Source: Cochleicola gelatinilyticus
GTDB taxonomy: Bacteria > Bacteroidota > Bacteroidia > Flavobacteriales > Flavobacteriaceae
Direction: 5' to 3'
NCBI RefSeq assembly: GCF_001637325.1
Contig: NZ_LRXL01000026.1
Span: 744,001-808,000, forward strand
Length of the DNA stretch: 64,000 nucleotides
Below the pieces are notes generated by a model. The model was not told the origin of the DNA and did no database searches. It saw nothing but the letters and a program-made list of their open reading frames with translations. The position numbers and the translations under genes were made by a program. Positions 19,523-23,712 of this stretch are shown one piece after another (position 1 is the stretch's first letter; every line of letters starts with the position of its first letter).

Positions 19523-20530
19523 ATGAGCAAAGAGAAAGATGCAAAATTAAAAGCGCTAGAACTTACACTAGCCAAATTAGATAAAACCTACGGAAAAGGT
19601 ACGGTAATGAAAATGGGAGACTCTGCTGTACAAGATGTAGAGGTAATCCCTACAGGTTCCTTAGGGCTCGACGTTGCCTTGGGTGTAGGAGGATATCCAA
19701 GAGGAAGAGTGATTGAAATCTACGGTCCGGAATCTTCAGGTAAAACGACATTAACATTACATGCCATTGCAGAAGCACAGAAAAAAGGAGGTATTGCTGC
19801 CTTTATTGATGCGGAGCACGCTTTCGATAGATATTACGCTGAAAAATTAGGTGTTGATATCGAAAACTTAATCATATCTCAACCCGATAACGGAGAGCAG
19901 GCACTCGAAATTACCGATAATTTAATCCGTAGTGGAGCGATCGATATTATTGTGATCGATTCTGTAGCTGCCTTAACACCTAAAAGTGAAATTGAAGGTG
20001 AAATGGGAGACAGTAAGATGGGATTACACGCCCGTTTAATGTCACAAGCACTTCGAAAACTAACTGGGTCGATAAGCAAAACAAACTGTACTGTTATATT
20101 TATTAACCAGTTACGTGAAAAGATTGGGGTGATGTTCGGGAATCCTGAAACCACTACCGGTGGTAACGCATTGAAGTTTTACTGTTCGGTACGTTTAGAC
20201 ATTCGTCGTTCTACACAAATTAAAGATAGTAACAGCAATGTGATGGGGAACAAAACTCGTGTAAAAGTGGTGAAGAATAAAGTAGCCCCACCATTTAAAA
20301 CAGCCGAATTCGATATTATGTATGGGCAAGGAGTCTCTAAAGTTGGAGAGATCATTGACCTAGGCGTAGATTTCGAAATTGTTAAAAAAAGTGGGTCTTG
20401 GTTTAGCTACGACGACACAAAATTAGGGCAAGGTAGAGATGCTGTTAAAACTCTTTTATTAGATAACCCTGAATTAATGGAAGAATTAGAAACAAAAATA
20501 AAAGCTAGTATTGCCGCATTAAACGAATAA
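19523..20530 (+). CDS. recA: recombinase RecA
   Basis: The ATP-dependent strand-exchange protein of homologous recombination and the SOS response. The 335-residue protein has Walker [10 protein letters not shown] (about residue 68), the FIDAEHAFD segment, Walker [11 protein letters not shown] and the [18 protein letters not shown]-binding loop region. The C-terminus is shorter and less acidic than in E. coli, as usual in Bacteroidota. No LexA box is recognisable upstream. The sigma factor gene follows 184 bases later behind its own promoter. Confidence 0.98.
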
Positions 20531-20601
20531 ACTTTACCTCTACCAAATAGCTTATCTCGTTAAAATTCGTTAAAAGAGGTAGAAAAACAACCATGTACAC
20601 G

Positions 20602-20657
20602 CAACCCTTAAGAATCGAAGGTATCTACTTAACGTAGCACCTTTGATTGCTGGGTTG
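20602..20657. repeat. nested inverted repeat between recA and the sigma factor gene
   Basis: Three coaxial stems are visible: CAACCC (20602-20607) with GGGTTG (20652-20657); AATCGAAGGT (20613-20622) with ACCTTTGATT (20639-20648, one G-T pair); and CTAC (20625-20628) with GTAG (20634-20637). No T-run follows. The right arm overlaps the -33 box of the next promoter, so an operator or a structured RNA are both possible. Confidence 0.65.
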
Positions 20658-20714: not shown

Positions 20715-21263
20715 TTGACTTTAGACGAGCTCATCATACTATGTAAGCAGCAGGATGCTAAGGCACAGGGAGAACTTTATAAACGTTATAACCAAACGTT
20801 GTTTTCCATCTGCCTTCGATATTCCCCTAACTATGTAGAAGCAGAAGACAATTTGCAAGATGCGTTTATTACTATTTTTAATAAGATAGCACAGTTTAAA
20901 GACAAAGGTTCTTTTGAAGGATGGATGAAACGGATCACGGTAAATACTGTTCTTCAGAAATATCGAAAACAACGAGTTTTTGACATACCAAATGAGGAAC
21001 AAATTGAGGATAAAGCAGAAGATGAAGACGTTACAGACTTAGAAGTTCCGTTGAATTTTTTACTAAAGATTATTCAAGAGCTACCCGACCGGTACCGATT
21101 GGTTTTTAGTATGTATGTTCTGGATGGGTATACTCATAAAGAGATTGCCGATCTGTTAGGAATCTCAGATGGTACGTCTAAATCAAATCTAGCACGTGCT
21201 CGTGGAATTTTAAAAACAAAGATCGAGACCTATTATCTCGAAAACGAAAATACTAAGCCATAG
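20715..21263 (+). CDS. RNA polymerase ECF-type sigma factor
   Basis: A 182-residue sigma-70 family factor with region 2 (about 10-85, including YVEAEDNLQDAF and the GWMKRITVN segment) and region 4 (about 118-175, helix-turn-helix YTHKEIADLLGISDGTSKS). The best start is TTG at 20715, since no ATG precedes the conserved LDELI N-terminus. It is followed 42 bases later by a gene for a membrane protein with a cytoplasmic N-terminus that is a candidate regulator. No zinc-type anti-sigma factor is present. Confidence 0.9.
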   Translation: MTLDELIILCKQQDAKAQGELYKRYNQTLFSICLRYSPNYVEAEDNLQDAFITIFNKIAQFKDKGSFEGWMKRITVNTVLQKYRKQRVFDIPNEEQIEDKAEDEDVTDLEVPLNFLLKIIQELPDRYRLVFSMYVLDGYTHKEIADLLGISDGTSKSNLARARGILKTKIETYYLENENTKP

Positions 21264-21305
21264 GGCATAATTAAATTATAGAACTGAAACACCCACTAGG
21301 GGATT

Positions 21306-22850
21306 ATGAAAGAAAAGAAACACATAGATCAACTTTTTAAGGAGCGATTCGAGCAATTCGAACCAACTCCTTCTCCACGTGTCTGGGAAAATATTCAGTC
21401 GCAATTGGCAGCTAAAAAGCAAGATCGAAAAGTGATTCCGCTTTGGTGGAGACTAGGTGGTGTTGCTGCCCTGTTGGCATTATTACTACTCGTTGGAAGT
21501 GTGTTTTTTAGTTCTTCGGAATTAAATAATACCGTGGTTACTTCTGAAGGAAAAGAAACACTGGAAGTTTCAGACCCTAATAACACTTTTCAACCTTCCA
21601 AAAAAGTGCCCAATAAATCTTCCGTTGCTTCTGAAGAGGTTGTAACAGAAGAAGAAAGTTTATTTAATCAACCTGCGACCTCAAAAGAGGTGCCTGCAGT
21701 TATTTCTTCGGAAAATGCTTCAGATAAAAGCTCGAAACAAAACACCCCAACTAAAAATTATACGAGGATTGCTTCCGAAGAAAAAGCTACGAAACATTTA
21801 AATTCCGCTACTGAAACCGCTTCCGAAGACATCAATAAAGTACAAACAACGAGGCCTCAAAGCAGCATTACTAACAATGAAGCAGTTGCCGTTGAAAATA
21901 CCTCTAAATCGAATGCTTCTTCAAAAATTAATGAAAGTAAAAAAGAAGCCGTTTCTACTAATAAAGAATTTAGTAATAAAGAGATAGGGGTTACTGAAAC
22001 TACTCCCATAGCAGAAGCATCACAATCGAATAATGAAACCAAGACAAAAACGAATAAAAAATCGTTGATCGAGGAAATTGAAAAAACTAAAAAAGAAGAA
22101 GAGGCTGTAGCAATTAAAAACACCCCTACTCAACGTTGGAATGTTGCTCCTAACATTGCTCCTGTTTATTACAGTAGTCTTGGAAATGGATCTTCGGTCG
22201 ACCCTATGTTTGAAGATAATTCTCAAGGAGGAAATACGAGTATTAGCTATGGAGTGAATATCTCTTATAACATCACCGACCGTTTGAGCGTTCGTTCGGG
22301 AATAAGTAATGTAGACCTTAGTTATTCTACCAATGATGTAGTTGCTGCCGAAGGTCCTGGATCTGTTGCATTACGAGGTGTAAATCATAATGGTAATACA
22401 AATATTATTACTGCTTTCGACAAAGGAAATGTACCCACTTCTAATGGTGCAGAAGGTTTTGGAATGATTATCCCTAAAGCAGGAGGTGCTATTGGGGAGT
22501 TAAATCAAGATATTTCTTACTTTGAAGTTCCTTTAGAGCTAAAATATGCCCTACTAAACAAACGCTTTGGTATTAATGTTATTGGTGGTTTTAGCACCTT
22601 GTTTTTAGGAAACAATGAAGTTTCAGTTCGTTCGGGCGATTTCGAAAGTGTGCTTGGAGAGGCTAATAATTTATCTTCGGTTAGTTTTACTTCGAATGTC
22701 GGACTTGGTTTTGGCTATTCGATTTCTAAAAAATTTAAATTTAATATTGAACCTATGTTTAAATATCAGCTTAATCCATATACAGATTCTTCTGTAAACT
22801 TTAAGCCCTACTATGTTGGGATTTATAGTGGTTTAAGTATTCAATTTTAG
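21306..22850 (+). CDS. putative trans-envelope partner of the sigma factor: membrane helix, long linker, outer-membrane barrel
   Basis: A 514-residue protein of unknown function. Residues 1-44 are soluble and charged, with the FEQFEPTPSPRVWENIQSQL segment seen in many Bacteroidota sigma-partner proteins. A strong membrane helix spans about 47-68 (VAALLALLLLVGSVFF). Residues about 70-275 are a disordered linker rich in Ser, Thr, Glu, Asn and Lys. Residues about 278-514 look like an outer-membrane beta-barrel of the porin-like/OmpA-like type, with alternating strands and a final aromatic residue (YSGLSIQF). The layout suggests one chain linking cytoplasm to outer membrane. No anti-sigma zinc motif is seen. 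Confidence 0.75.
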   Translation: MKEKKHIDQLFKERFEQFEPTPSPRVWENIQSQLAAKKQDRKVIPLWWRLGGVAALLALLLLVGSVFFSSSELNNTVVTSEGKETLEVSDPNNTFQPSKKVPNKSSVASEEVVTEEESLFNQPATSKEVPAVISSENASDKSSKQNTPTKNYTRIASEEKATKHLNSATETASEDINKVQTTRPQSSITNNEAVAVENTSKSNASSKINESKKEAVSTNKEFSNKEIGVTETTPIAEASQSNNETKTKTNKKSLIEEIEKTKKEEEAVAIKNTPTQRWNVAPNIAPVYYSSLGNGSSVDPMFEDNSQGGNTSISYGVNISYNITDRLSVRSGISNVDLSYSTNDVVAAEGPGSVALRGVNHNGNTNIITAFDKGNVPTSNGAEGFGMIIPKAGGAIGELNQDISYFEVPLELKYALLNKRFGINVIGGFSTLFLGNNEVSVRSGDFESVLGEANNLSSVSFTSNVGLGFGYSISKKFKFNIEPMFKYQLNPYTDSSVNFKPYYVGIYSGLSIQF

Positions 22851-22893: not shown

Positions 22894-22925
22894 AAAAACC
22901 GTTCTTCGCCATAGGACGGTTTTTT
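22894..22925. terminator. bidirectional intrinsic terminator
   Basis: AAACCGTTCT pairs with AGGACGGTTT (one G-T pair) across a 7-base loop, with A's to the left and T's to the right. It separates the convergent sigma-partner and acyltransferase genes. Confidence 0.85.
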
Positions 22926-22971: not shown

Positions 22972-23712
22972 TTAAATAGTAGGATTGTCTAATTCATTAC
23001 GTATAACCGCATGGGTTTTAGTTCGTAACTCTCGTCTGTTCTCTAAGACAAAACCTTTAGTTGGAATTAGCTCGTGAACTTTCACGCGCATTTTACCAGG
23101 GCCACCAGTAAAAAAAGTATAAGAAAATCGTTTTTTATTATCGTGAAAAGTCATAGGAGCAATGGGAATTTGATGTTCGATCGCTAAGCGAAACGCCCCA
23201 TCTTTAAATTCATCAAGAATCAAACTGAGATCTTCTGGAACACCTCCTTCAGGAAAAATACAAACGCTTAGACCTTGCTTCAATCTATTTTGCGCCTGTT
23301 TAAATACTTCCAATCGACTTTTAGAATCTTTTCGATCTACGAGAATACAGGTTCGTTTATAGAAGAAGCCAAACACAGGGATTTTAGCAAGTTCTTTTTT
23401 GCCCACAAACACAAATGGGTTGCGAACCACATACAACATTAACATAATGTCGGTCATCGAAGTATGGTTTGAAACAAACATGTAACTTTTTCCCTTCTCA
23501 AACTTCGTGTCTCTTTTAATAATTGGAAAAAACCCCATACCAAACAAAATAATTGTCGCCCATACACGTGCAATCTTAAAAAACATGGGATACCACGATT
23601 TTTTTAAAATGCTAATAAGTAACAAGGGAAACATTACTACAATAGGAAGCCCTAAAAGAATATAGAACCAGATTCTGTACAATGGAGTAAGGATGTATCG
23701 AAGTACCTTCAT
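22972..23712 (-). CDS. plsC: 1-acyl-sn-glycerol-3-phosphate acyltransferase
   Basis: Acylates lysophosphatidic acid to phosphatidic acid in membrane lipid synthesis. The 246-residue protein has two N-terminal hydrophobic segments (about 12-36 and 47-65), the catalytic H83-x4-D88 motif in SNHTSMTDI, and the substrate-binding FPEGG motif. Located at the inner face of the cytoplasmic membrane. It is transcribed toward the terminator at 22894-22925 and is divergent from trpS. Confidence 0.92.
   Translation of the reverse strand: MKVLRYILTPLYRIWFYILLGLPIVVMFPLLLISILKKSWYPMFFKIARVWATIILFGMGFFPIIKRDTKFEKGKSYMFVSNHTSMTDIMLMLYVVRNPFVFVGKKELAKIPVFGFFYKRTCILVDRKDSKSRLEVFKQAQNRLKQGLSVCIFPEGGVPEDLSLILDEFKDGAFRLAIEHQIPIAPMTFHDNKKRFSYTFFTGGPGKMRVKVHELIPTKGFVLENRRELRTKTHAVIRNELDNPTI

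Follow-up and report, generated by a model that had tools for sequence, protein, structure and literature searches.

A conserved ECF sigma factor gene in Cochleicola gelatinilyticus is paired with a putative single-chain, envelope-spanning anti-sigma factor of the Dma/Reo kind

Two groups of described systems come closest to the gene pair reported here. In Phocaeicola vulgatus and Bacteroides fragilis, the accessible text of two reports describes EcfO-Reo as having an anti-sigma factor that spans from the cytoplasm to the outer membrane, where it ends in a C-terminal barrel (PMC9308784, PMC13114119). The Dma family, confined to the Bacteroidota in the accessible part of its report, combines an N-terminal sigma-binding domain, a membrane helix, a disordered tether and a C-terminal barrel, and is encoded beside extracytoplasmic function (ECF) sigma factors of group ECF21 (PMC13088901). 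As far as these sources go, published Reo/Dma members repress their sigma factor, which is freed when the anti-sigma factor is lost, and the systems are induced by agents that harm the outer membrane; around the published ecfO-reo genes, nigD bears a neighbouring locus number. This literature speaks for the direction of control in systems of this kind but does not extend to the member considered here. We analysed a 64,000-nucleotide (nt) stretch of the Flavobacteriaceae species Cochleicola gelatinilyticus (assembly GCF_001637325.1, contig NZ_LRXL01000026.1, positions 744,001 to 808,000 of the forward strand), hereafter the window, in which an ECF sigma factor gene precedes a gene for a 514-residue protein. 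We put the probability at roughly 75% that this pair is an ECF sigma factor with a single-chain, envelope-spanning anti-sigma factor of the Dma/Reo type, working in the manner proposed below. An earlier, sequence-only reading of the locus had suggested that one polypeptide could connect the sigma factor with the outer membrane; our results support that idea, but it is not new, the design having been published as EcfO-Reo and Dma.

Both genes are found at the positions given in the sequence-only reading, lie on the plus strand and share one reading frame. The 182-residue open reading frame (ORF) at 20715..21263, with a TTG start, matches Pfam Sigma70_r2 (1e-15) and Sigma70_r4_2 (1e-16) and so encodes an ECF sigma factor, and the 514-residue protein is encoded at 21306..22850. 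The architecture previously outlined for the latter, a charged N-terminus, one membrane helix, a long linker and a barrel, was recovered in an AlphaFold model built from a 123-row family alignment. Residues 1-45 (21306..21440) form a predicted cytoplasmic segment of two helices (7-16 and 24-35), which we propose as the sigma-binding, anti-sigma part from its conservation, modelled fold, profile homology, covariation and recurrence beside ECF sigma genes. Residues 46-68 (21441..21509) form the single predicted inner-membrane helix, and the best 19-residue hydropathy window of the protein begins at residue 50. The putative periplasmic tether, residues 69-253 (21510..22064), appears disordered, with block means of only 39-54 in predicted local distance difference test (pLDDT) over residues 71-250, and it is followed by a partly conserved helix, residues 254-270 (22065..22115), just before the barrel. 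The barrel itself, which had been expected in residues 278-514 (22137..22847), is modelled confidently with eight strands (block means mostly 91-98 pLDDT, 72-89 in residues 361-400), and VIA-align superposes it on NspA and OprF (Z 17.8) and on OmpA (best 17.9). Pfam OMP_b-brl_2 matches the C-terminus at 3.1e-6, its 27.8 bits lying barely above the curated cut-off of 27.

Across the 123 family rows, K5, D8, F11, P22, W27, I30, L34, P45 and W47 are each kept in at least 90%, as is the terminal Phe that closes the barrel. The linker is fairly constant in length (median 200 residues, 5-95% range 139-245, extremes 65-326) and rich in N, E, K, T and S, but divergent in sequence; a total of 24,358 linker residues contains 18 Trp and no Cys. 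The 514-residue protein has no Cys at all and therefore no HxxxCxxC zinc motif, as had been noted before. No Pfam anti-sigma family matches it, the single NCBIfam anti-sigma match falls far under its cut-off (17.9 versus 100 bits), and a PDB sequence search with the whole protein returned two meaningless matches and no anti-sigma factor. Nor was a second anti-sigma gene recognised among the window ORFs adjoining the pair, in agreement with the earlier claim that none is present. From the modelled architecture we infer that in the cell the chain would run from the cytoplasm through the inner membrane and periplasm into the outer membrane.

The adjacency of the two genes extends well beyond the window. 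A relative of the 514-residue protein is encoded in 125 of 149 Flavobacteriaceae genomes, and many of the listed genomes that lack one are small, though not all. The best locus was opened in 124 of these 125 genomes (G023 being the one left out). In 123 of these 124 loci the gene for the relative is immediately preceded by a sigma gene of the same orientation, and at the exception the contig stops inside the gene. The median gap between the sigma gene and the one behind it is 0 nt, and start and stop often overlap. The pairing is thus conserved far beyond chance. The wider locus is conserved as well: recA (19523..20530, plus strand, in the window) precedes the pair in at least 111 of the 124 loci, a convergent gene on the opposite strand (22972..23712, minus strand), which we take to be acyltransferase-like, in at least 107, and all four genes together in at least 103, these counts being lower bounds given flanks of 1.5-3 kb and contigs that sometimes end. 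The envelope-spanning anti-sigma design is thereby extended to a mostly recA-linked locus in 125 of the 149 sampled genomes of one family.

Homology to the Reo/Dma proteins is detectable at both ends of the chain. For comparison we used the best 80 Bacteroidales loci of a larger number; the second family searched is taken to be the Bacteroidaceae, the L249 protein being identical to that of Phocaeicola massiliensis (L294). In P. vulgatus ATCC 8482 (L298), B. fragilis S82 (L347) and B. acidifaciens (L345) we found a divergent NigD gene, a sigma-like gene and a gene for a barrel-ended protein, an order by which these loci are matched to the published ecfO-reo through synteny. A profile of 30 Bacteroidales members aligned with the barrel of the window family at a probability of 99.4 (E 2.1e-21, 156 columns) and with its N-terminus at 98.7 (E 2.2e-16), both E-values being those of a single comparison.

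Several lines of modelling bear on whether the N-terminus meets the sigma factor. When the sigma factor and residues 1-48 were folded as one chain, with the intergenic stops read through and 137 rows in the alignment, the mean pLDDT was 90.8 and the predicted template modelling score 0.87; residues 4-43 of the putative anti-sigma factor reached block means of 91-98 pLDDT, compared with 68-86 for residues 1-40 when the full-length protein was modelled on its own. These confidence values suggest a contact between the two. In two-domain superposition, the modelled sigma factor fits SigW-RsiW (Z 13.2, 151 residues, root-mean-square deviation (rmsd) 4.4), SigK with its anti-sigma factor (Z 11.7, 146 residues, rmsd 8.4), CnrH-CnrY (PDB 4cxf; Z 11.2, 148 residues, rmsd 5.3) and RpoE-NepR (Z 11.0, 144 residues, rmsd 4.9), and ECF sigma factors bound to RNA polymerase match it over one domain or at an rmsd of about 10-27. 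Covariation with the sigma factor across 123 sequences gave a mean column maximum of 3.79 for the N-terminal columns and 3.31 for entropy-matched barrel columns, a value as high being drawn 12 times in 2000. This covariation is weak and suggestive only.

The N-terminus also recurs apart from the barrel. Searching the C. gelatinilyticus genome with the full-length profile returned one full match and five partial ones, all five adjoining an ECF sigma gene; among these, L135 alone is strong (E 2.6e-11) and the others range from E 7e-4 to 0.09. A profile of residues 1-75 matches 108 of 395 genomes of the phylum. In all 65 loci opened from the better-scoring listed matches (L165-L229; 57 outside the Flavobacteriaceae and 8 inside), an ECF sigma gene lies immediately upstream of the N-terminal segment, and adding six Flavobacteriaceae paralogue loci brings the count to 70 of 71, the remaining locus, L137, lacking an N-terminal match at the threshold used. 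With domains tallied at E up to 0.01 in classes that overlap, the 33 longer proteins (at least 335 residues) among the 70 carry OMP_b-brl_2 in 19 cases, OMP_b-brl in 8, VWA in 4 and a TonB Plug in 4; the 37 shorter ones show no match to the barrel families. The N-terminus is, going by these gene neighbourhoods, a modular segment joined to barrels or other tails beside ECF sigma genes, and members tailed by a VWA or TonB plug domain could couple a sigma factor directly to that domain. Such a range of tails, from barrels, VWA domains and TonB plugs to short extensions, suggests an evolutionary route from ordinary to envelope-spanning anti-sigma factors.

At L135, on contig 51 of the same genome, an ECF sigma gene is followed by one whose product, an anti-sigma-like protein of 272 residues, combines the same N-terminal module with a tail of low complexity. 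The next gene there encodes a separate secreted protein of 354 residues, barrel-like by eye and with no Pfam match. This locus looks like a split counterpart of the envelope-spanning chain, and having such a relative in the same genome permits a direct comparison.

Upstream of the sigma gene, the spacer that separates it from recA in close relatives (L009-L022) contains ACGCAACC-N15-(C/T)ATCTAC with some variants, and the window carries the form ACGCAACC-N15-TATCTAC at 20599..20628 on the plus strand, which we predict to be the ECF promoter of the sigma operon. It is the sole copy in the window of the general pattern CGCAAC(C/T)-N15-(C/T)ATCT, hereafter the motif. Within 1 kb upstream of the sigma gene and on its strand, the motif is present in 109 of 123 loci, and the 109 loci that played no part in its definition account for 96 of these hits; the reversed pattern and the opposite strand each gave 0. 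A scan of spacers from 8 to 23 found 110 matches at 15 and 0 to 3 at every other length. Generic sigma-70 promoter and terminator scans gave counts at chance level; a terminator-like hairpin followed by a T run, seen by eye after the 514-residue gene (22899..22925, plus strand), has a loop too long for the terminator scan used and was not reported by it. Because ECF genes usually autoregulate, the position of the motif suggests that the window sigma factor reads it. Of the models searched, those that matched this sigma factor were either general sigma-70 models or named sigma models scoring below their cut-offs. Going by the accessible text of a study that derived six promoter motifs from mapped transcription starts in F. 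psychrophilum, none is described as this motif (PMC9723704). Our literature search found no report on the Flavobacteriaceae pair, the motif or the peptide described below, though most subscription papers lay outside its scope and absence from print is not shown.

An additional ORF of about 139 residues, absent from the window's own clade, intervenes between motif and sigma gene in 87 of the 123 loci (among L023-L131), so that in most relatives sampled the sigma operon opens with it. The median distance is 32 nt from the motif to the start of this ORF and 27 nt onward to the sigma gene. Those members shown carry a lipoprotein-type signal, two further cysteines are invariant in the 11 aligned, and no Pfam or NCBIfam name beyond a lipoprotein attachment site was obtained (3 and 2 members scanned). 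Homology of this operon lipoprotein to NigD was considered; hhalign aligned the signal peptide alone, and no homology is claimed.

Across the C. gelatinilyticus genome, CGCAACC-N15-(C/T)ATCT occurs in four copies (reversed control 0): at the sigma operon, a small peptide gene, kdnA and a coding site linked to rmlD. In 13 close relatives there are 57 copies (control 3), which fall at the sigma gene (12, 5 of them assigned by coordinates), the small peptide gene (13), the rmlD-linked coding site (12, 3 by sequence only), lipoprotein-like genes (5), kdnA (3), membrane protein genes (2), a 71-residue ORF (1), a KdsD-like gene named by eye (1) and the interior of long ORFs (8). The peptide (L387; G000:C44:47608-47712, minus strand, in C. 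gelatinilyticus), exemplified by MTTFLIVLGALLVTNFLLLQFSCNDATEPETPEEE, comprises a single hydrophobic stretch plus a conserved F-S-C-N, and usually ends in an acidic tail; neither Pfam nor NCBIfam matched the one member scanned. The motif lies upstream of the peptide in all 19 of its best matches among the 149 Flavobacteriaceae genomes (L437-L455), 14 of these genomes having served in finding it and the other 5 not. These peptides span 32-57 residues, most of them 33-36, and the motif precedes the ATG by 21-26 nt in 16 and by 34-47 nt in 3. For the next 11 relatives (L456-L466), the 90 bases ahead of the ORF chosen lack the motif; for L456 that ORF was the wrong one. We regard the peptide as a candidate membrane peptide or lipopeptide, depending on whether the F-S-C-N cysteine would be lipidated.

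The rmlD-linked site (gene named by eye) recurs in 12 of the 13 relatives, 3 of them by sequence alone, as well as in C. gelatinilyticus. At the loci opened, it falls within an upstream ORF of 183-326 codons and can be translated as A-T-L-x-L-D-W-H-L with synonymous changes, so that conservation of the protein explains it and rmlD was dropped as a regulon member.

The aminotransferase gene that follows the motif in C. gelatinilyticus encodes a KdnA-like protein (PDB 5k8b, E 1e-150), and a KdsB-KdnB fusion in the same genome (PDB 1gq9, 2e-46; 5k8c, 1.7e-83) is preceded, at 24 nt from its start, by AGCAACC-N15-TATCT. Fusion of KdsB to the 3-deoxy-D-manno-oct-2-ulosonic acid (Kdo) 8-oxidase KdnB in one ORF is seen in the window's close clade (L494 and relatives); several more distant relatives have the two as separate ORFs. 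KdnA and KdsB-KdnB carry out steps towards 8-amino-Kdo (Kdo8N). The motif precedes kdnA in strict form in 4 of 24 located genes, with 1 more in relaxed form (27 loci examined, 3 unlocated). At 30 kdsB-kdnB loci examined, 23 genes were located, and 6 of these are preceded by it (2 in strict and 4 in relaxed form), compared with 0.035 in shuffled stretches. Several points weigh against this link: the relaxed form was chosen after inspection of the data, its distance to the start is 51-83 nt whereas the strict pair lies at 23-24, all 6 kdsB-kdnB cases are confined to the window's close clade, and the kdnA motif overlaps a box resembling TAnnTTTG, the housekeeping -7 element in the accessible text of the F. 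psychrophilum study (PMC9723704). The Kdo8N lipopolysaccharide genes are accordingly tentative candidates as sigma targets. For the full proposal, a family-wide regulon under the envelope-spanning anti-sigma factor, defined by the motif, that takes in the peptide (induced along with the sensor), the operon lipoprotein of most members sampled and, in the lineage of the window itself, KdnA and KdsB-KdnB, our expectation is guarded and leans towards doubt. If it held, the envelope response would amino-modify the inner core of lipopolysaccharide and feed back through a tiny membrane protein. The sharp motif and the candidate target peptide make the question of what such sensors control testable.

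The gene pair, its predicted architecture and conservation, the homology to Reo/Dma and the conservation of the motif are established computationally; sigma binding, the topology in the cell, the signal, proteolysis, the reading of the motif by this sigma factor and the regulon are what we infer from them. In an unstressed cell, the 45-residue two-helix segment would hold the sigma factor at the inner membrane in a form incompetent for RNA polymerase. Helix 46-68 would anchor the chain, some 200 disordered residues would cross the periplasm, and the outer-membrane barrel would report its own state. Since the barrel must assemble in the outer membrane while the other end of the chain sits in the inner membrane, its failed or damaged assembly would be the most economical signal. 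On that signal the N-terminal grip would be lost, probably through proteolysis, and the freed sigma factor would transcribe promoters bearing the motif: those of its own operon and the membrane peptide of about 35 residues, and perhaps of lipopolysaccharide genes.

A number of our observations weigh against this account. The sigma tree (46 rows) places the window sigma factor and the EcfO-type sigma factors in separate starred groups, though the forks between the two groups are weak (76/88) and 26 of the 46 rows fall in neither. The chain folded with the stops read through includes an artificial intergenic linker. SigG1, solved without an anti-sigma factor, fits the modelled sigma factor equally well (Z 11.5, 145 residues, rmsd 4.2), and sigmaE-RseA, AlgU-MucA and SigE-ChrR match it over one domain only; the superposition lacks specificity and says nothing on the N-terminal segment's own fold. 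Counted per column, strong covarying pairs amount to 0.93 (N-terminus), 0.88 (membrane helix) and 0.64 (barrel), and residues 1-3, where the ends of the alignment are blurred, take part in 6 of the top 15. Sigma70_r2 matches the genome 16 times, and the assignment of the motif to this sigma factor rests on the usual autoregulation of ECF genes. Finally, no NigD-like gene was recognised among the motif matches, the genome itself not having been searched for NigD.

Other ways of reading the same chain differ mainly in what the barrel and tether would do. The barrel may act as a client of the β-barrel assembly machinery (BAM) rather than as a sensor of external damage, folding when capacity is free, so that the chain measures assembly load. 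We regard this as a serious contender, somewhat short of even odds: a single chain of this design must itself be an outer-membrane assembly client, its terminal Phe is conserved, and ecfO-reo of P. vulgatus is, in the accessible published text, most upregulated under BcpT or bacteroidetocin A, the latter said to bind and inhibit BamA. These induction data come from Bacteroidales, however, and leave assembly load and general damage to the outer membrane indistinguishable. The tether might instead sense distance, reporting the spacing or tension between the membranes, and its fairly kept length and steady composition despite diverging sequence speak for this. We consider this quite unlikely, given that the linker varies from 65 to 326 residues in the family and, when taken as far as the conserved pre-barrel Trp, spans 115 to 169 in 30 Bacteroidales proteins. 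A fully extended chain of 200 residues, at the usual residue spacing, would measure about 70 nm, much longer than the periplasm is wide, which makes tension at rest unlikely.

A more radical departure would have the N-terminus and membrane helix cleaved during export, leaving an ordinary barrel whose adjacency to the sigma gene is regulatory only. It is true that an uncleaved inner-membrane anchor joined to an outer-membrane barrel is unusual for the export route, but the region ahead of the helix is conserved at the nine positions listed above, recurs with other C-termini beside ECF sigma genes and covaries, if weakly, with the sigma factor, and we hold this explanation to be most improbable. 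The pair might also be a strict orthologue of EcfO-Reo/Das1-Dma1 with the same output of NigD and vesiculation, as the common architecture and the profile homology at both ends would allow. The sigma groups, however, separate in the tree and are joined only through weak forks. The window locus is also linked to recA, whereas 57 of the 80 best Bacteroidales loci have a NigD-like gene close by, between about 3 kb upstream and 4.5 kb downstream. No NigD-like gene was found adjoining the window pair, whose neighbours are recA and the acyltransferase-like gene. The upstream element differs as well: the Bacteroidales loci (L294-L369) show another conserved element upstream of the sigma gene, in 64 stretches, and not the motif of the window family. 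That element was seen around GATGCAGTATTTTTGCA and TTTACTGCTT in several loci. Strict orthology with a shared output therefore seems unlikely, and we retain the reading of the pair as a separate member of the Dma/Reo kind.

Set beside the known systems, the window pair shares with EcfO-Reo an ECF sigma gene followed by a gene for a barrel-ended protein, in the window a putative anti-sigma factor, both ends of which align by profile. It differs in its position after recA, in its upstream element and in a longer linker (family median 200 residues, compared with about 130). With Dma1/Das1 and Dma2/Das2 of B. thetaiotaomicron it has in common, by the accessible description, the four-part domain order beside an ECF sigma gene, while in the Dma3-type fusions described there sigma factor, membrane helix, linker and barrel form one chain (PMC13088901); in the window, two genes encode the sigma factor and its partner, which carries an N-terminal segment of its own. 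Among the Bacteroidales we found 14 Dma3-like ORFs, chosen by length (553-603 residues), with sigma factor and barrel in one chain (L274-L283 and L286-L289). A membrane helix directly after the sigma factor is visible in several of these, which apparently lack an anti-sigma segment; such a chain would be a membrane-tethered sigma factor that needs cleavage to act. The short helical segment ahead of a membrane helix resembles CnrY, which is not known to have an outer-membrane barrel. Zinc-binding anti-sigma (ZAS) factors differ in their HxxxCxxC motif, absent from the window protein. In the TonB receptor/FecR relay, receptor and anti-sigma factor are separate proteins that meet in the periplasm; there too the state of the outer membrane is passed to an ECF sigma factor, and the window has one chain in place of two proteins. 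That contrast, drawn already by the sequence-only reading, stands insofar as the window pair has no Pfam FecR match up to E = 1 and no TonB receptor gene was recognised by eye among the adjoining window ORFs, but the kind of system it pointed to had already been described. On its sequence features, the window pair thus belongs with the Dma/Reo kind and is not filed as an EcfO-Reo orthologue: the single-chain design is already known, and the new elements are the motif shared across the family, the peptide, the modularity of the N-terminus and the split relative.

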